Source: Lactobacillus isalae
GTDB taxonomy: Bacteria > Bacillota > Bacilli > Lactobacillales > Lactobacillaceae
DNA length: 64,000 nt
Reading direction: 5' to 3'
NCBI RefSeq assembly: GCF_947539375.1
Contig: NZ_OX443569.1
Coordinates: 1 to 64,000, forward strand
The notes below the pieces were generated by a model, which was not told the DNA's origin, searched no databases, and saw only the letters and a list, made by a program, of their open reading frames with translations. Shown here in pieces: positions 40,717 to 50,826 of the stretch; positions within the stretch are counted from its first letter, which is position 1, and each line of letters begins with the position of its first letter. The position numbers and the translations under genes were made by a program.

Positions 40717-42012
40717 ATGCTAGAACGTTATACTCGTCCCGAAATGGGCAAAATTTGGTCATTAGAAAATAAATACGCCGCTTGGTTAAAAGTTGAAATT
40801 GCAGCAACTAACGCTTGGGCAGAGCTTGGTGAAGTACCAGCCGAAGATGCTAAGAAGATTGCTGATAATGCTTCTTTTACAGTAGAACGCGTTAGTGAAT
40901 TAGAAGCAATTACTCACCACGATGTAGTTGCTTTTACTAGAACAGTTTCCGAAAGTTTAGGTGAAGAAAAGAAGTGGGTTCACTTCGGCTTAACTTCAAC
41001 CGACGTTGTGGATACTGCACAAGGCTATATCTTAAAGCAAGCTGACGAAATTATTCTTAAAGATTTAGAAGCTTTAAAAGAAACAATTGCAGATAGTGCT
41101 CGTAAGTACAAGTACACTGTTGAGATGGGAAGAACTCATGGTGTTCAAGCAGAACCAACTACTTTTGGTTTAAAGTTGGCTCGGTGGTATGCAGAAATTA
41201 ATCGTGACATTGAACGCTTTAAGGCTGCTGCTAAAGATGTTGAATCTGGTAAGATTTCTGGAGCTGTTGGTACTTTTGCTAATGTTCCACCAGCAGTTGA
41301 AACTAGCGTTTTAAAGCAACTAGGTTTAACTCAGCAACCAGTTACTAGTCAGGTTTTGCCAAGAGACTTACATGCATACTATATTGCTACGATTGCTTTA
41401 ATTGCCACAAGCATTGAAAATTGGGCAACAGAGATTCGCGGTTTGCAACGTAGTGAAATTCATGAAGTTGAAGAACACTTTAGAGCTGGTCAAAAAGGCT
41501 CTTCTGCAATGCCTCACAAGCATAATCCAATTGGTTCAGAAAACCTATGCGGTATGGCTCGAGTAATGCGCGGCTTTATGGTGCCAGCTTATGAAGATGT
41601 AGCTTTATGGCATGAGAGAGATATTTCTCATTCAAGTGCTGAACGTGTGATTTTACCTGATGCAACAATTGGAATTGATTACATGTTGAACCGTTTTAAC
41701 AGAATTTTGACTAACCTCGATGTTTTCCCAGAAACAATGCTTAAGAATATGGACCGTACTTATGGTTTGATTTATTCACAACGCGTGCTTTTGAAGTTAA
41801 TTGATGAAGCAGGCTTATCACGCGAAAAAGCTTATGACATGGTTCAAAAATTAGCTAATAAGTCATGGCAAGAACAAACTTCATTTAGAAAGCTAATTGA
41901 AGATAGTGAAGTTATGAATTACTTGTCTGAAGATGATTTAGATGATGCATTTGATTATCATTATCACTTGAAGCATGTTGATGAGATTTTTGAAAAATGT
42001 GGTTTAGATTAG
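40717..42012 (+). CDS. purB: Adenylosuccinate lyase
   Basis: It releases fumarate from adenylosuccinate and SAICAR. The fumarase-superfamily signature GSSAMPHKHNPIGSEN lies near residues 262-277 and the general-acid region HFGLTSTDVVDTA near 88. 431 residues. It forms a purA-purB pair, with a hairpin terminator after it. Confidence 0.96.
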   Translation: MLERYTRPEMGKIWSLENKYAAWLKVEIAATNAWAELGEVPAEDAKKIADNASFTVERVSELEAITHHDVVAFTRTVSESLGEEKKWVHFGLTSTDVVDTAQGYILKQADEIILKDLEALKETIADSARKYKYTVEMGRTHGVQAEPTTFGLKLARWYAEINRDIERFKAAAKDVESGKISGAVGTFANVPPAVETSVLKQLGLTQQPVTSQVLPRDLHAYYIATIALIATSIENWATEIRGLQRSEIHEVEEHFRAGQKGSSAMPHKHNPIGSENLCGMARVMRGFMVPAYEDVALWHERDISHSSAERVILPDATIGIDYMLNRFNRILTNLDVFPETMLKNMDRTYGLIYSQRVLLKLIDEAGLSREKAYDMVQKLANKSWQEQTSFRKLIEDSEVMNYLSEDDLDDAFDYHYHLKHVDEIFEKCGLD

Positions 42013-42022
42013 GATAGAAACT

Positions 42023-42070
42023 AAAACGTTTTGTTGGATATAATTATGTCTGACAGAACGTTTTTTATTT
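42023..42070 (+). terminator. Terminator of purA-purB
   Basis: Imperfect stem AACGTTTTGTTGGA/TCTGACAGAACGTT with T6ATTT tail. It covers the upstream part of an in-frame extension of the next ORF, which supports the later start of that gene. Confidence 0.75.
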
Positions 42071-42093
42071 TGGGGAGAGGAAAATATAAATAT

Positions 42094-42924
42094 ATGACAA
42101 TAGGTGAGGCATTAAAAGAAGAGCAAAATCAGCTTGGCTTGACTCATGAAGAAATGGCGGCAGGAATTATTGCTAAGGGAACATATTCAAAATTAATAAA
42201 TGGAAAAATTGAGATTCAGAGTAATCTTTTGATTGCATTACTTTTAGAACATGATATCGATATTAGCAATTTCTTTAACAAAGTAAAGAATACATATACT
42301 TCAAAAGAAAAACAGTTGGCAATAGAACTCTCACAAAAAATGGGTTTAGCAGTTAATAATCACGATTGTGTATTAGCTGAAGACATTTTAGAAAAAATTT
42401 TGCTCTTAGAAAACCATAAATATTTAAAATACCGGGCGATTATTGCAACGGCTTATTTAGAAAATAAAGTATCATTTTTAAGTGAAAATTTTAAAAAAGA
42501 GGTTTTAGTTGCAATAAATTCAAATTCCAACTGGATAAAAAATCCAGGTGCATTGCGTTTACTTTCGACAGCACTAGTGGTCTTAGATCCGGAACAAGTA
42601 GAAAATGAAATGGAACTATTTTTTTTAAAACTTAGGAGAAGAAATAATTATTCGGAAAGTGTAAAGGAACGATATGCAATGCTTTGTGATAATTATTTAC
42701 ATTGGAGATTTGATTACAGGAAAAAAGTGTTTGATAAAAAGAATATCGATTCTGCATTACAATTTCTTAATGATTTAGATTCTAGTCCACACTTAATGGT
42801 TTATAAATTATCTAAAAAATATTATCAGTATCTTTTTAATAATCAAATTGACTTAGCAAAAAAGATGAAAATAGATTTGTTAGATATGGGATGTATTGCA
42901 GGCGTTACAAATTGGCCTGTATAA
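42094..42924 (+). CDS. Rgg/GadR/MutR-family transcriptional regulator
   Basis: The protein has an N-terminal XRE-type helix-turn-helix (TIGEALKEEQNQLGLTHEEM, then YSKLINGKIEIQSNLLIALL, residues about 2-55) and a long helical C-terminal domain of about 220 residues, as in peptide-sensing Rgg/ComR proteins. The start is set at ATG 42094, after GGGGAGAGG, giving 276 residues; the frame upstream lies in the purB terminator. Such regulators bind short hydrophobic peptides encoded nearby, and a 12-codon ORF with a Trp-Trp pair follows directly. It probably controls the operon from 43.0 kb. The region is notably AT-rich. Confidence 0.82.
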   Translation: MTIGEALKEEQNQLGLTHEEMAAGIIAKGTYSKLINGKIEIQSNLLIALLLEHDIDISNFFNKVKNTYTSKEKQLAIELSQKMGLAVNNHDCVLAEDILEKILLLENHKYLKYRAIIATAYLENKVSFLSENFKKEVLVAINSNSNWIKNPGALRLLSTALVVLDPEQVENEMELFFLKLRRRNNYSESVKERYAMLCDNYLHWRFDYRKKVFDKKNIDSALQFLNDLDSSPHLMVYKLSKKYYQYLFNNQIDLAKKMKIDLLDMGCIAGVTNWPV

Positions 42925-42970
42925 AAAGGCTTGATTGTTTCTTATTTGAAACGAATCAAGCCTTTTATTT
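42924..42970 (+). terminator. Terminator of the rgg-like gene, possible operator
   Basis: AAAAGGCTTGATTGTTTC pairs with GAAAC, a bulged G and AATCAAGCCTTTT over 18 bp around a TTATTT loop, then ATTTTT. It ends the regulator transcript. As DNA it is a long inverted repeat centred about 35 bp upstream of an extended -10 element, where an activator site would be expected. Confidence 0.8.
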
Positions 42971-42976
42971 TTGTGA

Positions 42977-42985
42977 TGATAATAT
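42977..42985 (+). promoter_or_regulatory. Extended -10 element before the 12-codon ORF
   Basis: TGATAATAT is a TGn extended -10 with no recognisable -35, because that position falls in the terminator stem. This is typical of activator-dependent promoters. Transcription would begin near 42992, just before the AAAGGAG ribosome site. Confidence 0.45.
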
Positions 42986-43018
42986 TGAAGATGAAATTTT
43001 TAGTAAAGGAGTAAAAAG

Positions 43019-43057
43019 ATGGATTGGTGGACAACATTACCTATTATTACAGCATAG
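43019..43057 (+). CDS. 12-residue peptide MDWWTTLPIITA, candidate pheromone or precursor
   Basis: AAAGGAG (43005-43011), seven bases, then ATG and a 12-codon frame ending TAG. The peptide is hydrophobic and carries Asp-Trp-Trp. The same DWW trio occurs in the ComS/XIP pheromones of streptococci that act on ComR, an Rgg-related regulator. The ORF lies 95 bp after an Rgg-type gene and 25 bp before an ABC exporter. It has no secretion signal of its own. It could be a signalling peptide, the precursor of a tiny modified peptide, or a translated leader. No protein evidence is available. Confidence 0.6.
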   Translation: MDWWTTLPIITA

Positions 43058-43081
43058 AAAATAGAAAGTGGAAAAATTACT

Positions 43082-44044
43082 ATGGATGAGCTAATAGAAG
43101 TGCATAATATTTACAAAGTATTTCATACAAAAAATAGTGATAAAACCGCAATTAATGGAATATCTTTTACGATAAAATCTGGAGAAATTGTAGGATATAT
43201 CGGAATGAATGGCGCAGGAAAAAGTACAATGATTAAAATAATGTGTGGAATTTTGACGCCAAGTAAGGGAGAAGTAAAGATTGATGGTATTATTCCATAT
43301 GAGTCTAGAATACGAAACGCAAAAAATATAGGAGCAGTTTTTGGTCAACGTAGTCAATTATGGTGGGATTTACCAGTGATTGATAGTTTTAAGCTATTAA
43401 AAAGTTTATATAAAATTTCGAATCGTGAATTTGCTAGAATATTAAACTATTTTGATGATTTATTTGGCATTTCTAATTTATACAATTCTTTAGTTAGAAC
43501 ATTGTCATTAGGAGAAAGAATGAAGGCTGATATCGTGGCCAGTATGCTTCATAATCCCAAAATATTATTTTTAGATGAACCGACAATTGGATTAGATTTT
43601 CAGGCAAAAAATAAAATGAGGGAGGCAATTTTAGATATAAATAAAAGGTATGGTACAACAATTATACTGACAACGCATGATTTAAACGATATTGAGACTT
43701 TATGCAAAAGAATTTTAATTATAAATTCTGGCAAAAAAATATACGATAATTCTATGGAAAAGCTTAAGACAAAATATGGAAATTATAAATTGTTAGAATT
43801 TAGTAATTTAACTGATTGTAAATTTAATAAGCTTATTTCTATATTAAACAAAAACAAAATATCAGTTAGTGTGGCAGAAAGAAACAAAGTAAAAGAGATT
43901 ATTTTAAAAAAAGATCAAACGAATTTTGCTAAAGTGATGGAAATAATAGGAGAAATTGATGATTCGCTCAATGTAGAATTAAGAAACTATCCTACGGAAG
44001 AAATTATAGAGAGAGTCTATAAAGATAATGAAACTAAAAAATAA
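43082..44044 (+). CDS. ABC-2 exporter ATP-binding protein
   Basis: A 320-residue ATPase with Walker A GMNGAGKSTM near residue 40, an FGQRSQLWWDLP Q-loop near 89, signature LSLGERMKADI near 141 and Walker B ILFLDEPTIGLD near 161. The FGQRSQLWWDLP motif is typical of exporters whose permeases belong to the ABC-2 (DUF990-like) group, as here. A C-terminal domain of about 90 residues follows. It starts the enzyme and exporter part of the accessory operon and overlaps the next gene by 17 bp. Confidence 0.9.
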   Translation: MDELIEVHNIYKVFHTKNSDKTAINGISFTIKSGEIVGYIGMNGAGKSTMIKIMCGILTPSKGEVKIDGIIPYESRIRNAKNIGAVFGQRSQLWWDLPVIDSFKLLKSLYKISNREFARILNYFDDLFGISNLYNSLVRTLSLGERMKADIVASMLHNPKILFLDEPTIGLDFQAKNKMREAILDINKRYGTTIILTTHDLNDIETLCKRILIINSGKKIYDNSMEKLKTKYGNYKLLEFSNLTDCKFNKLISILNKNKISVSVAERNKVKEIILKKDQTNFAKVMEIIGEIDDSLNVELRNYPTEEIIERVYKDNETKK

Positions 44045-44855
44045 AATGTCTTCCATAAAAAGTTATTATTTTTTTTCCTTAGCTGAATTAAAACAAAATT
44101 ACTTAGCTTATAAATCTCGGTTTATGTTATGGGTATTTGCAAATACGATTGTATTATTAGTCCAGTTATTTTTATGGTTAGCAATATATAATAATGCTTC
44201 TACTGCAACCATTAACGGATTCTCTAAAATGGAAATTTTAAATTATTGCATTATATCTAAAATAATTGAGGCATTTACCTATGTATCTTTTGAAGCTAAA
44301 GTTGCCAAAGATTTGGATAATGGAAATATTACTATGAATCTTATAAAACCAATAAATTATAGAGTAGAACTTTTTTTTCGGGCATTTGGAAGTATATTGG
44401 GATCTATTGTTTTATTTGTTCCCGTATATGTATTAATTTGGCTTATAGTAAATAAGTTTAAAGTTTATTTTTGTGGATTACAAAGTTTGCTTTTTTTTAT
44501 AAGTCTTATCAATGCATTCCTTTTAAATTATTTTATTTGTTTAATATGTTCTAGCTTTCTAATAAAGACTATAAAATCTAAAGGGATATATTTCTTAAAG
44601 TTAACTATTATTAATTTTTTGTCGGGTGCATTTTTTCCATTAGCTTTCTTGCCTTTTAAGGTACATCAAATAATAAATTTTTTGCCATTTATTCAATTAA
44701 GATCAGTTCCAATTGAGATATTCATGAGGCGCATTATTGGAAAAGAAATTTTTATCAACTTTTTTATATCAATTTTTTGGATCTTTATTTTTTATCAACT
44801 AAGTAGTTATTTGTGGAATAGACAGTTAAAAAAACTGGAATCTTTTGGTGGGTAA
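44028..44855 (+). CDS. ABC-2 type permease 1
   Basis: The 275-residue protein has six membrane segments and fits the ABC-2/DUF990-type permeases that work in pairs with the preceding ATPase class. The NYLAYKSRFMLWVFANTIVLLVQLFLWLAIY stretch (split at about residues 24-54) is a typical first-helix region. Codon use is strongly AT-biased. Start could also be ATG 44046. Confidence 0.85.
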   Translation: MKLKNKMSSIKSYYFFSLAELKQNYLAYKSRFMLWVFANTIVLLVQLFLWLAIYNNASTATINGFSKMEILNYCIISKIIEAFTYVSFEAKVAKDLDNGNITMNLIKPINYRVELFFRAFGSILGSIVLFVPVYVLIWLIVNKFKVYFCGLQSLLFFISLINAFLLNYFICLICSSFLIKTIKSKGIYFLKLTIINFLSGAFFPLAFLPFKVHQIINFLPFIQLRSVPIEIFMRRIIGKEIFINFFISIFWIFIFYQLSSYLWNRQLKKLESFGG

Positions 44856-44859
44856 TCTA

Positions 44860-45636
44860 ATGAAAAAAATGTTTTATTTGACTAAGTATAACTTTAAAAT
44901 TTTTATTACACATAAAATTGATTTTTTTCTTAATGTACTGAATATATTTATAAATCAGATAGTAACGTTAACTTTTATATATATCACAATTAAAAACTTA
45001 CCTAGTTTAAATGGATGGAAAATAAATGAGTTAGTTTTAATTTATGGATTATATTTAATAAATAAGGGATCTGCTGATTTTTTTTCCGCTGGAATATATA
45101 ACTTAGAAGAATATATTCAGGAAGGATTTTTAGATTCGTTAATGATTAGACCTTGTCCAATTCTATTACAGATATTTTCTACGCAATTTGATTTTTTCCA
45201 ATTAATAAATATCTTTTTAGGCTGGGGACTGATAAGTTATTATTTTTTGTTAGACATAAAAAAATTTAATATTTATGCCGTACTGATTATTTTGTTGTAT
45301 CAGTTTATATCTGTATTATGTATTTTTTTTCTAAAAGTAATGACAATGTCAATAGCTTTTTGGACACAAACTGGGTATCCAGTAACTAGTTCAATTGATA
45401 ATTTGTCAGCGTTTGCTAAATATCCCTTGGATATATATAACACATTTATAAGTTCTTTTCTTACTTTTATTTTTCCGTATGCATTTATTTCATTTTATCC
45501 AGCAATATTAATTCTTAATAAAAGCAACAATAAAAAAATTTTATTGTTAACCATGATGATTACCGTATCAGTAATTATTATTTCATCAATAGTTTGGAAA
45601 GTGGGGCTAAAACGTTATGAAAGCAGTGGACACTGA
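44860..45636 (+). CDS. ABC-2 type permease 2
   Basis: 258 residues with about six membrane segments, starting KKMFYLTKYNFKIFITHKIDFF. Start ATG 44860 is set by GGTGGG seven bases upstream; an in-frame TTG at 44845 overlaps the previous gene. Together with permease 1 and the ATPase it makes a complete heterodimeric exporter. The substrate is unknown; the following enzyme genes suggest a small modified molecule. Confidence 0.85.
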   Translation: MKKMFYLTKYNFKIFITHKIDFFLNVLNIFINQIVTLTFIYITIKNLPSLNGWKINELVLIYGLYLINKGSADFFSAGIYNLEEYIQEGFLDSLMIRPCPILLQIFSTQFDFFQLINIFLGWGLISYYFLLDIKKFNIYAVLIILLYQFISVLCIFFLKVMTMSIAFWTQTGYPVTSSIDNLSAFAKYPLDIYNTFISSFLTFIFPYAFISFYPAILILNKSNNKKILLLTMMITVSVIIISSIVWKVGLKRYESSGH

Positions 45637-46378
45637 CAGGATAACATTAATTAAGGAAATGAAAGATTTTTCTTTTAAGCAAGATAATAAAAAGATAGAG
45701 AAGTTATGTTATGACTTGCTTGGTAAAGAAAACATCATATTAATTCATTATATAGGTAGTATTGCCTATCATTTAAAGTCTAATTCGGGTGATTACGATG
45801 TTATGGTAATTACTAAAAAACATGTTAATTTAAAAAATGTTTCTAGAAGTGATAATAGTTTTCAGCTTGTGTGTCTGAAAAATTTGAAATTTATTTCTAA
45901 ACTTGATCTATTTGTTGTTGATTTTGAAAATGCTATTAAAATTCATAATTTAAGAAGTGATACGAGTAGCTATATAAGAAATTTTATTGATAGCACATTA
46001 AGCTTAAATGATACACTTATTTTTGAAAATGAAAATTTCAAAAGAGAACTGCAAATTTATAAAAATTTGAACATTGAAAGTAAAATTGTTCCATATTATA
46101 AACATATAATTAGATATTACAAAAAACTCATATATGTAGTTTCACCGGGGAAATTTAGAAAACATGAACATCATATTTTTAGATTTTTAGATAATTTTTC
46201 TTACTTTTTGAAAAATGGTTATTATTCTCATGTTGCGTATGGAGAGCATTTTAATATAATGCTAGATTTTAAATATTCATCACAAAAAGAATATCAATAT
46301 TATTTACCTTTACTAGAAGAAGCTTTAAGTAAACTGGAAAAGATGGTGAATAACTATGCAAGAAATACAAAAAATTGA
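45617..46378 (+). CDS. Predicted nucleotidyltransferase-fold protein
   Basis: The 253-residue protein has a Pol-beta-type motif near residues 46-64: HYIGSIAYHL, then SGDYDVMVI, i.e. G-S followed after nine residues by D-x-D. A third acidic residue may be the Asp in KLDLFVVDF near 98. This fits a minimal nucleotidyltransferase that moves a nucleotide onto a protein, RNA or small molecule. The C-terminal half is helical with His-rich segments (KHEHHIFRFLD). It overlaps permease 2 by 20 bp. I do not recognise a specific family. Confidence 0.6.
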   Translation: MKAVDTDRITLIKEMKDFSFKQDNKKIEKLCYDLLGKENIILIHYIGSIAYHLKSNSGDYDVMVITKKHVNLKNVSRSDNSFQLVCLKNLKFISKLDLFVVDFENAIKIHNLRSDTSSYIRNFIDSTLSLNDTLIFENENFKRELQIYKNLNIESKIVPYYKHIIRYYKKLIYVVSPGKFRKHEHHIFRFLDNFSYFLKNGYYSHVAYGEHFNIMLDFKYSSQKEYQYYLPLLEEALSKLEKMVNNYARNTKN

Positions 46379-47282
46379 TAAAATTATATCTATAATTTTA
46401 AAGACAGTAAATATAGAGTACTTTCAAAAAGTTTTAATGAATTATAAACCACGTGAGCTTGTCTATACTTCTTTTGATGGAGATTATATGCATTATATTT
46501 TAGATATGCATAAATTCTGTATGCGAAAAAATTTAATCCCATTAAATCCTGAATCTGCGTTAGGATATTATGTTTCTACTATTAGTCACGGAGGAAGTAA
46601 AATTCCAGTTATGCTAGATTGTATATCACTGGCATTATTATGTGAAAACTTTTTCGTATTTAATCCTAAAAACAAGAAAATGCCAGAGGGAGTAATAGCA
46701 GAAATAATATATTGGAACAAGGTTCATAACAAAAATATTGATATTTATGATTTTTTTGATGGATGTTTTGCAGCAAAAGAATTTTCTCATAAAATTATAT
46801 CTAATCAAAATTTGAAAGAAATAAAATTGAATCCAGAAAACAAGACTCAAATAAAAAATAGACTTTTGAGTTTAATAGACAGAGAAAAAATAAAATATGG
46901 GTATACTGTAGCTAGTTTTTATAATTTTAAACATATAGATTGGGTTCGTGCTTTTTGTTATTCTAATAATATTTGTCCTGTTTCGCCACAGAGTATATTA
47001 GAAAATAGTTTATATCGTATGATGTATTCGAATAATTTGCAATATTTATATGATAGAATAACTTTGTTAAAAAAGACAGATCGTCTATATTTTTTTACTA
47101 ATATTAATAATATAGATGAAGAAATAAAAAAATTAGATTATTTTTCTAAATTGGAGTTATTGTACTGGTATTTTAATAAAGATAGAAAAAATATAAAAAT
47201 TGTAAATTGGGCTGACATTGATGTTCCTAAATATAAGCGAAAAGACTGGGCTATTACTGATTCGGAAAGAGTTGGGAGATAA
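46356..47282 (+). CDS. Protein with two nucleoside 2-deoxyribosyltransferase-like halves
   Basis: 308 residues that read as a tandem duplication. Half 1 (about 30-140) runs from VYTSFDGDYMHYILDMHKFC through LIPLNPESALGYYVS to AEIIYWNKVHNKNIDIYDF; half 2 (about 185-298) runs from YTVASFYNFKHIDWVRAFCYS through ICPVSPQSILEN to LELLYWYFNKDRKNIKIVNW. The pattern, a Y-x-x-x start, P-x-[NS]P, and a Glu ahead of an aromatic pair and a final strand, resembles the NDT/DUF4406 Rossmann-like fold, where that Glu is the nucleophile. Both halves keep a Glu. A nucleoside or nucleotide substrate is inferred. It overlaps the previous gene by 23 bp. Confidence 0.5.
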   Translation: MQEIQKIDKIISIILKTVNIEYFQKVLMNYKPRELVYTSFDGDYMHYILDMHKFCMRKNLIPLNPESALGYYVSTISHGGSKIPVMLDCISLALLCENFFVFNPKNKKMPEGVIAEIIYWNKVHNKNIDIYDFFDGCFAAKEFSHKIISNQNLKEIKLNPENKTQIKNRLLSLIDREKIKYGYTVASFYNFKHIDWVRAFCYSNNICPVSPQSILENSLYRMMYSNNLQYLYDRITLLKKTDRLYFFTNINNIDEEIKKLDYFSKLELLYWYFNKDRKNIKIVNWADIDVPKYKRKDWAITDSERVGR

Positions 47283-47825
47283 ATGTTTGAGGTAGAAAAG
47301 AAATATAGAATTAAAAATTTAACATCTTTTATTGAAAATTGTAAAAAGAACAAAATAGTTTTTTTAGAAAAATATATTGAAATAGATAAAATTTTTGTAA
47401 ATAGTGAGATAAAGGACTTTAATTTTAAGAAGGGAACTGCCGTTACTCGAATAAGAAAAGTAGAGGGAAAAGATAATTTTATTACTTTAAAGCGAAAGTT
47501 AAGTGACGTTAATTCTTTAGAATTGGAAACTAAGATAGAAGATATCGCGGTAATGGAAAAAATATTATATGAATTGGGATTACATGAATTAGTTACAGTA
47601 CATAAGACTAGACAGAAATCGCAGTTAGAAAATATAAATATTTGTTTAGATAATGTGGATAAGATAGGTTGGTTTGTAGAGTTAGAAATATTGATTAATA
47701 ATAAAAAGAATGTTTTGGAAGCACAACAAAAAATTGACAATTTGGCTGCTCAATTAGAATTATATAAAGATAACATTGAAACTAGAAAATATGATGTATT
47801 AGTATTTGAAAAAAATGATAGATAA
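47283..47825 (+). CDS. CYTH-domain (triphosphate tunnel) protein, CyaB/ThTPase-like
   Basis: The 180-residue protein begins MFEVEKKYRI, the ExExK signature of the CYTH superfamily, and shows the alternating charged strands of the eight-stranded tunnel: TRIRKVEGKDNFITLKRK near 59-76, ELETKIED near 82, and LDNVDKIGWFVELEI near 124. Members hydrolyse or cyclise triphosphorylated substrates (inorganic triphosphate, thiamine triphosphate, ATP to cAMP). Substrate is unknown here. Its ATG follows the previous stop codon without a gap. Confidence 0.75.
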   Translation: MFEVEKKYRIKNLTSFIENCKKNKIVFLEKYIEIDKIFVNSEIKDFNFKKGTAVTRIRKVEGKDNFITLKRKLSDVNSLELETKIEDIAVMEKILYELGLHELVTVHKTRQKSQLENINICLDNVDKIGWFVELEILINNKKNVLEAQQKIDNLAAQLELYKDNIETRKYDVLVFEKNDR

Positions 47826-48561
47826 TAACTTAAAAAAACAATTAGAGCATTTAAATGAAATATATAAATCAGGTCACTGGGGAAGTGATATGCCAGAGGA
47901 TACACGTCCTCAAAATTTAGATCCTAATTCTGAAGTAAATGCTATTTTTTATACATTGCCAACTGCTTTAGACTATCAACGAAATTCTAATACCTTGTGG
48001 AAAAGTGCTACCGCTACTTTTGAAGATAATGAGACTAATTTTGTATTTAATCCACAAGACGTGGTAAATAAAGATTTTACTGAAGTACAGGCAGCTTTAA
48101 CTAAATATAGTTTGGCTTTGCAGAAAAATAAGCAGACACAAATTTGGATTAAACTTTGTCAGACTTTAGATAATAATTTCAATGGAAAAGTAACTGATTT
48201 TTTTGCTTATTTTGACAATGATATTAAAAAAGTTCGTCATTATATGCAGGTAGAGAAGAAAAAGGATTTTCCATACCTGTCTGGTAAAAAATTATGTAAT
48301 TACTGGTTGTATGTGATGTATCTGTATACAAATCTGCCTTTGATTAATACTGATAAAATTTATATTGCTACAGATCGTCATATTATTAGAGCTACGCATA
48401 AACTTGGGCTGATTACAGATGAAGAATTAGAAAGTACAAAAGTACAGGATTATGTAATAAAAGCTTGGATTGAAGCGATAAAGGGTACCAATTATATACC
48501 TATTGATTTTCAATCTGCCCTTTGGTTATGGGCAAGGAATGGGTTTAAAGAAGAATTGTAA
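47815..48561 (+). CDS. HhH-GPD glycosylase-like protein
   Basis: 248 residues. Near residue 165 to 205 the sequence reads YLSGKKLCNYWLYVMYLY, then IYIATDRHIIRATHKLGLI. A Lys-rich helical hairpin followed by D-x-H-hydrophobic-x-R-x-x-x-x-LG is the pattern of HhH-GPD glycosylases, where that Asp activates the sugar C1'. N-terminally, LPTALDYQRNSNTLWKSA is also glycosylase-like. It could cut an N-glycosidic bond in DNA or in a nucleoside-type product. Start is ATG 47815 (or TTG 47806), inside the CYTH gene end. Confidence 0.55.
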   Translation: MIDNNLKKQLEHLNEIYKSGHWGSDMPEDTRPQNLDPNSEVNAIFYTLPTALDYQRNSNTLWKSATATFEDNETNFVFNPQDVVNKDFTEVQAALTKYSLALQKNKQTQIWIKLCQTLDNNFNGKVTDFFAYFDNDIKKVRHYMQVEKKKDFPYLSGKKLCNYWLYVMYLYTNLPLINTDKIYIATDRHIIRATHKLGLITDEELESTKVQDYVIKAWIEAIKGTNYIPIDFQSALWLWARNGFKEEL

Positions 48562-48579
48562 TATTAAAGAGAGAACATC

Positions 48580-49029
48580 ATGAAACATGAACATTCAGCA
48601 GGCGCGATTATCTGGCGCAAGCAAAATAACGAAATCCAATATTTATTAATTCAAAGTCAGCCTTATAAGCAATTTAAGAGTGCATGGGCTTTTTCAAAAG
48701 GACATCTTGAAGCAGGAGAAACAGCGCAAGAAGCTGCAAAACGAGAAATTTTTGAAGAAGTAGGTTTAAAGCCTGAATTTAATTTTGATTTTGGTGAAAG
48801 TTATTCATATCAAGTTACTTCAGAAATTGAAAAGACTGTAACTTTATTTTTAGCAAAATACAATCCTGATCAGAAAATAAAACATCAAGAAAGTGAAATT
48901 AGGCAGACTGCTTGGCTAAACTATGAAGATGCGCAAAAAAGAATTAGAGAGCAAAACTTTAAGGAATTTAGTTTTGAAGATTTATCTTTGATTTTAGCAA
49001 AAGCCAATACTTATTTAGTTAACTATTAG
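48580..49029 (+). CDS. NUDIX hydrolase, Ap4A-hydrolase-like
   Basis: The NUDIX box is complete: GHLEAGETAQEAAKREIFEEVGL near residues 40-62 (23-residue pattern G-x5-E-x7-REUxEExGU). The N-terminal EHSAGAIIWRKQNNEIQYLLIQ and 149-residue length match bis(5'-nucleosyl)-tetraphosphatases of the asymmetric type. It follows the glycosylase-like gene by 18 bp with an AGAGAG site, so it may be the last operon gene, or an older resident. Codon use is less AT-biased than upstream genes. Confidence 0.85.
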   Translation: MKHEHSAGAIIWRKQNNEIQYLLIQSQPYKQFKSAWAFSKGHLEAGETAQEAAKREIFEEVGLKPEFNFDFGESYSYQVTSEIEKTVTLFLAKYNPDQKIKHQESEIRQTAWLNYEDAQKRIREQNFKEFSFEDLSLILAKANTYLVNY

Positions 49030-49105
49030 GAATAAAAGGTGTCTCCCCCCCTTAATTTATTTCTATTTTTTAGTTTTGAAGTAACTGCATAAGAAAATTC
49101 AAAAG

Positions 49106-49134
49106 TAGACAATAACTAAAAGAAATTATATAAT
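49106..49134 (+). promoter_or_regulatory. Promoter of the antitoxin-like small RNA
   Basis: TAGACA, 17-bp spacer, perfect TATAAT. Expected start near 49141. Confidence 0.75.
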
Positions 49135-49140
49135 AGCAAA

Positions 49141-49233
49141 AGCAAAGGAGTTAGTGACTGCTACTCACTAACTCCAATCGTAACTTAAGTATGACTGTGT
49201 TGCTAGCTAATCCTTGTGATTAGCTTTTTTTTA
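49141..49233 (+). ncRNA. Small RNA, candidate antitoxin of a type I toxin-antitoxin locus
   Basis: A compact transcription unit of about 92 nt: promoter, an 11-bp hairpin (GGAGTTAGTGA/TCACTAACTCC, 49147-49175), and a terminator (AGCTAATC/GATTAGCT then T8, 49205-49232). Its 3' end overlaps the end of a converging 32-codon hydrophobic ORF. Its TCACTAACTC segment can pair with TTAGTGA and GAGTTAG in the opposite transcript, near that ORF's ribosome site. This is the layout of par/Fst-type loci. Confidence 0.65.
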
Positions 49234-49318
49234 TTATTGCGTAAGCTTTTGCAATACGTATGGCACAAGTACCAAGAGCACCTAAGATAATGCTTACTGC
49301 AATAGCAAAAGAAATCAC
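49220..49318 (-). CDS. 32-residue hydrophobic peptide, candidate type I toxin
   Basis: Minus-strand frame starting GTG at 49318, with GGAGAG about 12 bases upstream. The peptide has one membrane segment (ISFAIAVSIILGALGTCAIR) and a basic tail (KAYAIIKKS), the usual build of Fst/Ldr/holin-like toxins. Its stop codon lies in the shared terminator hairpin of the converging small RNA. A minus-strand promoter (49438-49466) lies upstream. No clear sequence match to E. faecalis Fst was seen, so the family is uncertain. Confidence 0.55.
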   Translation of the reverse strand: MISFAIAVSIILGALGTCAIRIAKAYAIIKKS

Positions 49319-49437
49319 TTGGCAGTCTAACTCTCCAGTCTACCCAATTATGCATAAGCTTCCACCGCCGTAACTTAAACTATTTGAGGGGTGTGTAGCC
49401 ATGCTAAAAAGTCACTAAGTTCTAACAGGAGCTACCT

Positions 49438-49466
49438 GTTATATTGAACCTAACGTTATTCTACAA
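49438..49466 (-). promoter_or_regulatory. Promoter of the toxin-like transcript
   Basis: On the minus strand, TTGTAG, 17-bp spacer, TATAAC. The resulting transcript would carry a leader of about 110 nt before the 32-codon ORF. Confidence 0.55.
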
Positions 49467-49547
49467 AAAAATTTTTGTATAAGATACACCAGTAGGAAGA
49501 AAAGGACTACTTCTACTGAATTATTTACTTTAAATCTTGACAAGTTC

Positions 49548-49577
49548 AAAGCCGTCGATATCAAATGGCTTTTTATT
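49548..49577 (+). terminator. Terminator-like hairpin upstream of the CoA-transferase gene
   Basis: AAAGCC/GGCTTT with a loop of about 13 bases and TTTTTATTT. What it ends is unclear: perhaps read-through from the NUDIX gene, which lacks a terminator of its own. The rest of 49467-49638 shows no gene. Confidence 0.5.
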
Positions 49578-49638
49578 TCGCATATTTTTATCTAAAATAA
49601 GACTTGAATACAGTTAAAACAAGAAAGTGTACATAAAA

Positions 49639-50826
49639 ATGTCAGAACCAAATTATGCAAAGCTAGAAGCAAGTAATCCTCATTTAGATAAGGATAAGCC
49701 ATATCCATTAGCAGGGATCTTAGTTGTGGACTTCACTCATGTCTTGTCAGGTCCAACTTGTACAAGAATGCTTGCCGATGCAGGTGCACGAGTAATCCAC
49801 ATTGAGAGAAAAACCGGGGATGATACCCGACACATGGGACCATACATTGCGGATGGTTCAAGTGAATATTTCAGAATCTGCAATGCAGGAAAAGAATCAA
49901 TTGCCTTAGATTTGAAAGATCCAAAAGATCATGCTTTAGTCGAAAACATGATTGCTAAGGCTGATATAGTTGTAGAAAACTTCCGTCCAGGTGTTATGGC
50001 GCGTTTAGGTTTTGCTCCAGAAGAAATGGTGAAAAAGTATCCTAAATTAATTTTTGCATCTGTTTCTGGATTTGGACAATATGGCCCTTGGTCAAAACAA
50101 GCAGCTTATGACACAATTATTCAAGCTGTTTCTGGTTTGATGGATGCTACAGGTGAACCAAACGGCAAGCCAACACGTGTTGGAACTTCAGTTTCTGATG
50201 TTGTTGCTGGAATTATGGGATATAGTGCAATTACCACTGCCTTAGTAGCAAGAGAGCGAACAGGAAAGGGTACAACTGTAGATGTTTCGATGCTAGATTC
50301 TACCTTCTCTTTAATGGTGCAAGACCTAATGATTGCTCTTGGGCCACATGAAGTACCACACAGAATTGGCAATCGTCATCCTGATATGTATCCGTTTGAT
50401 ACTTTTGATTGTCAAGATCAGCCAATTGCCATTTGTTGTGGAAATGATCATTTATGGGGATTATTATCTAATGCATTAGGGCATGAAGAATGGATTAATC
50501 AAGCAGATTTTAAGACAAATGATTTGCGTGAGAAAAACTGGCAAGAAGTTAAGAATGCGATGCAAGCTGTGCTTAAAACTAGGACTGCCGCAGAATGGGA
50601 TGAAATTTTGCATAAAGCAGGGGTGCCAGCTGGCTTAGTTTTGAATGTGGATAAGACTAGACGCCTTGATCAAATTATTGAGCGCGGGATGGTTAAGACG
50701 CTACCCGATGGTAATGAAGTTTTAGGTTCGCCACTTAAATATGGAACTTGGAATTCATATGGTTTACAAAAAGATGCACCAAAACTAGACGAACAAGGTG
50801 AGCAGATTCGTAAGGAATTTGAATAA
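49639..50826 (+). CDS. Class III CoA-transferase (CaiB/BaiF/Frc family)
   Basis: A 395-residue family III CoA-transferase that moves CoA between carboxylic acids. LAGILVVDFTHVLSGPTCTRMLADAGARVIHIE near residues 22-54 (interrupted here for length) and KLIFASVSGFGQYGPW..QAAYDTIIQA with the catalytic Asp near 160 are family hallmarks. Start ATG 49639 is preferred over GTG 49627. In oxalate-degrading lactobacilli such genes pair with oxalyl-CoA decarboxylase; none lies beside this one, so the donor and acceptor acids are unknown. Confidence 0.85.
   Translation: MSEPNYAKLEASNPHLDKDKPYPLAGILVVDFTHVLSGPTCTRMLADAGARVIHIERKTGDDTRHMGPYIADGSSEYFRICNAGKESIALDLKDPKDHALVENMIAKADIVVENFRPGVMARLGFAPEEMVKKYPKLIFASVSGFGQYGPWSKQAAYDTIIQAVSGLMDATGEPNGKPTRVGTSVSDVVAGIMGYSAITTALVARERTGKGTTVDVSMLDSTFSLMVQDLMIALGPHEVPHRIGNRHPDMYPFDTFDCQDQPIAICCGNDHLWGLLSNALGHEEWINQADFKTNDLREKNWQEVKNAMQAVLKTRTAAEWDEILHKAGVPAGLVLNVDKTRRLDQIIERGMVKTLPDGNEVLGSPLKYGTWNSYGLQKDAPKLDEQGEQIRKEFE

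Follow-up and report, generated by a model that had tools for sequence, protein, structure and literature searches.

The window analysed here is a 64,000-nucleotide stretch of Lactobacillus isalae (contig NZ_OX443569.1, positions 1 to 64,000), in which a run of nine open reading frames (ORFs) at 42094-49029 encodes, all on the + strand, a helix-turn-helix (HTH) regulator, an ABC exporter ATPase, two ABC-2 permeases, a nucleotidyltransferase (NTase)-like protein, a tandem protein resembling nucleoside 2'-deoxyribosyltransferases (NDT), a CYTH protein, an HhH-GPD-like DNA glycosylase and a NUDIX hydrolase; a 12-codon ORF lies between the regulator and ATPase genes. A first-pass annotation had described this run as a peptide-controlled operon, rich in AT, that builds or trims a nucleotide-derived molecule and exports it. 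The layout is borne out by the ORF positions and the GC profile: from the ATPase gene on, the spacings are a 17 bp overlap, a 4 bp gap (which holds if permease 2 starts at ATG 44860), 20, 23, 0 and 11 bp, and an 18 bp gap, and GC per kilobase is 23-31% in the gene run against 35-39% on both flanks. The run is nevertheless not a single unit by origin, as the HhH-GPD and NUDIX genes occur in relatives without the rest. The ABC ATPase, the two PF06182 permeases, the CYTH protein and the NUDIX hydrolase exceed curated family cut-offs.

DNA alignment with relatives reveals an inserted cassette of 5.7 kb and low GC at 42089..47823 (+ strand), which carries the regulator, the 12-codon ORF, the ABC ATPase, both permeases and the NTase-like, tandem NDT-like and CYTH genes; homology to cassette-free relatives stops at 42088/42089 and resumes at 47823/47824. 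The order purA-purB-HhH-NUDIX is found without the cassette in G124, G042, G041 and G445. It follows from these cassette-free arrangements and the alignment edges that the nine-gene run consists of a cassette, which extends from the regulator gene to the CYTH gene, and of two genes that were already resident. The cassette sits exactly on the start codon of the resident HhH-GPD gene; the former ribosome-binding site of that gene now precedes the cassette regulator, and the CYTH gene runs 11 bp into the rebuilt start of the HhH gene. The search for flanking direct repeats gave only 8 bp AT-rich matches, and no target duplication is claimed. An HhH homologue is present in 19 of the 75 genus genomes, this one included, and its surroundings were read in 8 of the 18 others: four have purB-HhH-NUDIX, one (G006) has HhH-NUDIX-frc with different upstream genes, and three (L070-L072) carry HhH elsewhere. 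In G011 the order is purB-NUDIX, with HhH missing. The first-pass annotation had considered that the genes might be core to related species; this is not so for the CYTH gene (1/75 genus genomes) or the NDT gene (1/41 relatives), each seen in its own genome only, while the HhH-NUDIX pair is indeed resident in relatives. The purB-frc interval is itself variable among relatives (L066:7692-11930, L068:8971-13991, L040:8115-9455), where it holds small pairs reading as toxin-antitoxin-like, regulators and other genes.

The tandem NDT-fold protein (46356..47282) had no match over cut-off in the family libraries, and its assignment is based on a second-look structure aligner together with residue conservation. 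The structure model has a pLDDT (predicted local distance difference test) of 87, and its best solved match is 2'-deoxyribosyltransferase (7o62, 6qai), which upholds the earlier label of a tandem NDT-like protein and predicts an NDT-type Rossmannoid fold; the order of secondary-structure elements repeats once, and therefore "tandem" fits. The protein shares with these enzymes the fold of residues 33-158 and the G-x3-E motif but is 12-13% identical to them and has two repeats and extra N-terminal helices. Of the structural comparisons proposed at first reading, the second aligner recovered the NDT fold; a Foldseek search of the PDB and of viral sets had no hit at E <= 0.001, and the NTase model was poor. 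The NDT profile found nothing credible among the sequences of solved structures, and no homologue was matched in plasmids and viral contigs. D88 and G112-x3-E116 are invariant in 18/18 aligned sequences; the motifs YTS-x-DGD, DC and VPK are also invariant. The positions of E116 and D88 suggest a catalytic role for both. One further candidate homologue, L011 (G125; E 2e-4), is a lipoprotein-like frame whose matched stretch contains stops, and was judged a chance hit; it was present in the first alignment (A1) and was dropped from A2, A3 and all counts.

NDT homologues are rare yet repeatedly linked to DNA glycosylases. Outside the window, 19 NDT loci were compared, 18 from the NDT search plus L102, by means of small hidden Markov models built from their members; as the seeds were drawn from the same loci, the counts describe these loci and are no independent test. 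An HhH-GPD gene stands beside, near or fused to the NDT gene in 16 of the 19. It is EndIII-like in L012-L017, L019-L024 and L028, with fusion to NDT in L012, and AlkA/OGG-like in L026 (3.3 kb from NDT), L029 and L102; none is found in L018 (a 5.8 kb contig), L025 and L027 (an additional copy carried by the L026 genome). Among the members scanned with Pfam, the HhH-GPD cut-off is exceeded in L012, L013, L016 and L102, and likewise for the L026 and L029 genes as represented by their copies in L007 and L009, while the L024 protein falls below it. A guanylate-kinase-like domain occurs in 13/19 loci, fused to NDT in seven (L013, L014, L015, L016, L017, L019, L022), and Maf in 11/19. A CYTH gene precedes NDT by about 0.1 kb in L017 and L019, and another belongs to the L026 cluster. 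Other neighbours are an ExoIII-type enzyme (PF03372) in L024 and MazG-like and cytidylate-kinase-like proteins in L025. The linkage takes its simplest form in L102:8967-10693, from a Bacilli genome outside this family, where NDT and HhH stand as a bare gene pair with no exporter cluster, kinase or Maf. In a Clostridia metagenome-assembled genome (L012:8242-14360), the NDT-HhH fusion lies beside a guanylate-kinase-like protein, a CAP12-TIR protein, an Fpg-type glycosylase and, by reading, a methyltransferase-like protein.

Two of these loci are exporter clusters. That of Streptococcus mitis (L029:7092-16801; L009 is the same contig, and L010 comes from a second S. mitis genome) contains PPDK-like, NDT, HhH, NUDIX, ABC, CAAX protease-like, NTase-like and PqqD-like genes, and its PPDK-like protein scores best with the prodigiosin ligase PigC model, far below the cut-off. 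That of Companilactobacillus metriopterae (L026:1956-10753) contains CYTH, PqqD-like, CAAX protease-like, NTase-like, HhH, PPDK-like and NDT genes, as well as a transporter of 400 aa (assigned to MFS by reading only) and a flavodoxin (by reading). A protein of 265-276 aa in L026 and L029 was considered as a known N-hydroxylase, for which Pfam and NCBIfam gave no support. Both clusters look biosynthetic and are candidate undescribed biosynthetic clusters; they show that NDT, HhH, NTase-like and exporter genes have been combined independently of the window. In L016, L023 and L102, lone ABC ATPase matches at a distance of 5.8-8.9 kb were not taken as exporter clusters.

The NTase-like protein (45617..46378) retains an intact motif, GS-x9-GDYD with LDLF further on, so that its earlier naming as a nucleotidyltransferase-fold protein stands at motif level; its family match (PF01909, E 0.018) is below cut-off, its single-sequence structure model is poor (pLDDT 41) and was left unused, and a sequence search of solved structures gave nothing credible. 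Matches were found in 2/395 order genomes, its own and G333, the latter (E 6e-4) a secreted-looking protein judged to be a chance hit. A relation to the NTases of S. mitis and Companilactobacillus is not supported by profile comparison, the similarity being at motif level only (hhalign E 0.27 over 26 columns in the motif region). The CYTH protein (47283..47825), named as such from the start, exceeds curated cut-offs including that of the NCBI cyaB model (89.9 vs 57.95 bits), carries the ExExK motif as EVEKK and has an archaeal triphosphate tunnel metalloenzyme among its solved relatives; it fits the class IV adenylate cyclase model, at a level of sequence where cyclase and triphosphatase are indistinguishable. 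The exporter comprises the ATPase (43082..44044; PF00005, E 6e-25), permease 1 (44028..44855; PF06182, E 2e-21) and permease 2 (44845..45636, from TTG 44845 or ATG 44860; PF06182, E 2e-42). Permease 2 has homologues in 67/295 order genomes, its own included, and found nothing credible in a sequence search of solved structures; exporter homologues are common in the order, above all in streptococci, and are no marker of the system.

These genes bear on the suggestion that the operon is biosynthetic, in which the NTase, NDT and CYTH proteins would make or trim an antimicrobial or signal derived from nucleotides, for secretion by the ABC exporter under peptide control, with HhH and NUDIX providing self-resistance or having no role. 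The exporter genes lead the unit, a related exporter adjoins an AMP-binding enzyme in L095, and the NDT/HhH/NTase-like clusters of S. mitis and Companilactobacillus carry PPDK/PEP (phosphoenolpyruvate)-utiliser and PqqD-like proteins and have a biosynthetic look. However, the cassette has three enzymes only and no obvious scaffold-forming gene, its NTase relation to those clusters is unsupported by profile comparison, and most of the NDT homologues found lack an exporter cluster and have a DNA glycosylase as partner, a pattern more in line with self-protection or the clean-up of a base analogue than with building a molecule; we consider this explanation somewhat unlikely. What survives of the first-pass proposal of a molecule built or trimmed and exported is therefore the rare, foreign-looking combination of nucleotide enzymes and exporter, of which similar enzyme types occur in exporter clusters elsewhere.

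The resident glycosylase (47815..48561) has 248 aa from ATG 47815. Its HhH-GPD match lies below the Pfam cut-off (17.8 vs 26.2 bits) and is absent at E <= 0.001 in the search of its own genome. Lys159 and Asp187 stand at the expected motif positions (Lys in 6/6 and Asp in 5/6 aligned sequences). No HhH match was found in phages. In L070:6365-7866 and L071:6420-7922, a gene of the UDG superfamily lies directly upstream of a homologue about 57% identical to the resident HhH protein, possibly forming a two-glycosylase pair. The NUDIX hydrolase (48580..49029) exceeds its curated cut-off with a full Nudix box, in agreement with its first naming, and is 82-93% identical at the same site in cassette-free relatives.

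The older residence of these two genes is the starting point for reading them as bystanders, with an unrelated cassette having landed by chance in a variable spot by purB, an interval that in relatives holds other genes including a toxin-antitoxin-like pair (by reading). Against this, the genome has one other HhH-GPD over cut-off among about 2000 genes (an estimate), so that a chance landing on one is unlikely; moreover, the cassette end overlaps HhH by 11 bp, and genes of these types are found together again at loci independent of this one. Chance neighbourhood is accordingly regarded as unlikely.

A defence function has also been considered, in which the NDT-fold (or a TIR-like NADase) protein and the DNA glycosylase would act on modified-base phage nucleotides, as Brig1 and Brig3 act on phage DNA. 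Two reports describe Brig1 and Brig3 glycosylases as anti-phage defence enzymes of the UDG superfamily (PMC11078745, PMC13160076), and thus DNA glycosylases can be anti-phage; these enzymes belong to a different family from the glycosylase here. TIR and STING-TIR folds are among the next-best matches of the NDT model, the CAP12-TIR protein adjoins the NDT-HhH fusion in L012, and NUDIX matches the PADLOC candidate PDC-S07 at E 1e-12. In the same PADLOC scan, which covered five of the nine window proteins, NTase, NDT and CYTH had no match and HhH matched only JetA (E 0.006); the exporter also fits poorly, and defence is very improbable.

The regulator (42094..42924, 276 aa) matches the HTH family PF01381 at E 2e-4, below cut-off, and shares 35-41% identity with regulators found at other places in the genus; searched against the sequences of solved structures, it gave nothing credible. 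The first-pass annotation had called it Rgg-like. The HTH is present, but neither Rgg_C of Pfam nor the NCBIfam Rgg models match it, whereas a true Rgg of a relative (L041:6310-7200) matches Rgg_C at E 2e-50 and aligns with it, profile to profile, over the HTH only (88 columns); it may be termed Rgg-like by architecture only. A strong hairpin followed by a T-rich tract (42924..42966; -22.9 kcal/mol, z -7.5), probably a terminator or an operator, separates it from the 12-codon ORF MDWWTTLPIITA (43019..43057), a candidate leaderless signal peptide. AAAGGAGTAAAAAG precedes this ORF, and its ribosome-binding site is good; in shuffled intergenic sequence, a Shine-Dalgarno-preceded short ORF arose in 286/5000 cases, and one with WW in 2/5000. 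A pattern scan found the start motif of MDWWTTLPIITA in 6/251 family genomes including its own; of the five other matches, four are the starts of long ORFs and the fifth, in L080, is a frame of 8 codons lying within a longer ORF, and a peptide of the MDWWTTLPIITA type was seen in one genome. The DWW of MDWWTTLPIITA resembles XIP pheromones. The locus thus resembles the Rgg/ComR-short peptide switches in having an HTH regulator beside a very short ORF, but differs from them in that the regulator has no Rgg_C match and no similar short ORF follows seven homologous regulators. Leaderless signal peptides are known, including SIP of RopB (PMC6565748). For peptide control, claimed at first reading, the evidence is a single short ORF next to an HTH regulator that Rgg models do not recognise; the claim is not upheld as stated, although such control may still operate, as a weaker conjecture.

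The purB terminator hairpin (42023-42064, consensus scan) overlaps a promoter-like TAGAAA-18-TATAAT (42015-42044); this stretch (42015..42064) is resident sequence, retained in cassette-free relatives (aligned with L066 and L067). No + strand terminator-like site was listed between 42931 and 49205 by the consensus scan, which also missed the hairpin at 42924..42966, and read-through from the cassette into HhH-NUDIX is therefore expected. A terminator-like hairpin at 49205..49225 (consensus scan) may end the composite unit. No Rfam family was matched across 41900-49700. After the NUDIX gene, 49030-49626 comprises 597 bp without an ORF of at least 60 aa and has one terminator-like hairpin on each strand and, at 49106-49134, a promoter close to consensus (consensus scan).

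Taken as a whole, the cassette, probably acquired horizontally, and the resident HhH-NUDIX pair may form one eight-gene unit for living with a nucleotide or base analogue, by clean-up and export, an interpretation that we favour tentatively and hold at slightly less than even confidence. In a deoxynucleotide analogue, the NDT-fold protein would cut (or transfer) the N-glycosidic bond; HhH would remove the same base from DNA, NUDIX and CYTH would remove or prevent the triphosphate form, and the ABC exporter would pump out the analogue or its product, thereby protecting a producer or an exposed cell. The HTH regulator and the 12-residue peptide might switch the unit on, and the insertion might have put the resident pair under the cassette switch, both of which are weaker suggestions. 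The substrate and product are likewise proposed by deduction. The pairing of a free-nucleotide N-glycosidase with a DNA glycosylase makes sense if both act on the same base, and clean-up would also suit a CYTH of triphosphate type and the NTP pyrophosphatases, namely Maf, MazG-like and NUDIX proteins. The cassette itself has no glycosylase or pyrophosphatase and landed on a resident glycosylase-NUDIX pair. Several points weigh against this interpretation: the guanylate-kinase-like domain is hard to fit into it; the profile link of the resident HhH with the NDT-linked EndIII-like glycosylases is weak (E 5e-4, probability 32%); behind seven homologous regulators (L041, L066-L069) no similar short ORF was found, one 5-codon candidate only, which tells against a peptide switch; and the variability of the insertion spot among relatives tempers the argument from non-chance landing.

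The proposed clean-up follows the logic of human DNPH1, an hmdUMP N-hydrolase acting in the pool, and SMUG1, acting in DNA, with an exporter added. Both human enzymes act on hydroxymethyl-dU. The window system resembles them in having an NDT-related enzyme with a conserved Asp and then Glu in DNPH1 order (spacing 28 here, 24 in DNPH1) and in combining a pool enzyme with a DNA glycosylase, where same-base action is known for DNPH1/SMUG1 and genetic linkage (16/19 loci) is what is seen here. It differs in being bacterial, in its tandem domains, exporter and regulator, and in a linked glycosylase that is HhH-GPD and outside the SMUG1 family. SMUG1 excision becomes harmful in the human case once DNPH1 is lost, so a further role of the pool enzyme may be to shield the cell against the glycosylase that it carries. 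AlkZ-family glycosylases, which are HTH_42 proteins, provide self-resistance in natural product clusters against bulky genotoxin adducts (PMC9040887); the likeness is that exporter and biosynthesis-type genes accompany a DNA glycosylase, and the difference is that here an HhH-GPD protein accompanies NDT and nucleotide hydrolases. Glycosylase self-resistance and glycosylase defence are thus already known, but via other glycosylase families. The earlier statement that no system with this gene set has been described agrees with the open-licence literature, in which no paper was found that combines NDT, guanylate kinase and HhH-GPD, that joins glycosylase self-resistance, a nucleoside antibiotic cluster and Nudix, or that concerns an NDT-glycosylase gene neighbourhood or a deoxyribosyltransferase-CYTH-ABC transporter cluster. 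A hydroxylaminopurine lead was dropped, as the literature gave no paper uniting all its terms.

A wider proposal, which we regard as doubtful, is that an unnamed prokaryotic module, an NDT-fold N-glycosidase paired or fused with HhH-GPD and often accompanied by a guanylate-kinase-like domain and a nucleotide pyrophosphatase, polices one base analogue in both pool and DNA, and that lactic acid bacteria combined it with exporters and a switch, giving operons that make or resist such an analogue. If the NDT-glycosylase pairing is functional, bacteria possess a guard that is dedicated to one specific base analogue and acts at two levels, and the linkage offers a handle on it, since the base cut by the glycosylase should equal the base released by the NDT-fold enzyme. 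In that case, the exporter-bearing versions hint that lactic acid bacteria, both commensals and those of food, are a source of nucleoside-type compounds not yet described.

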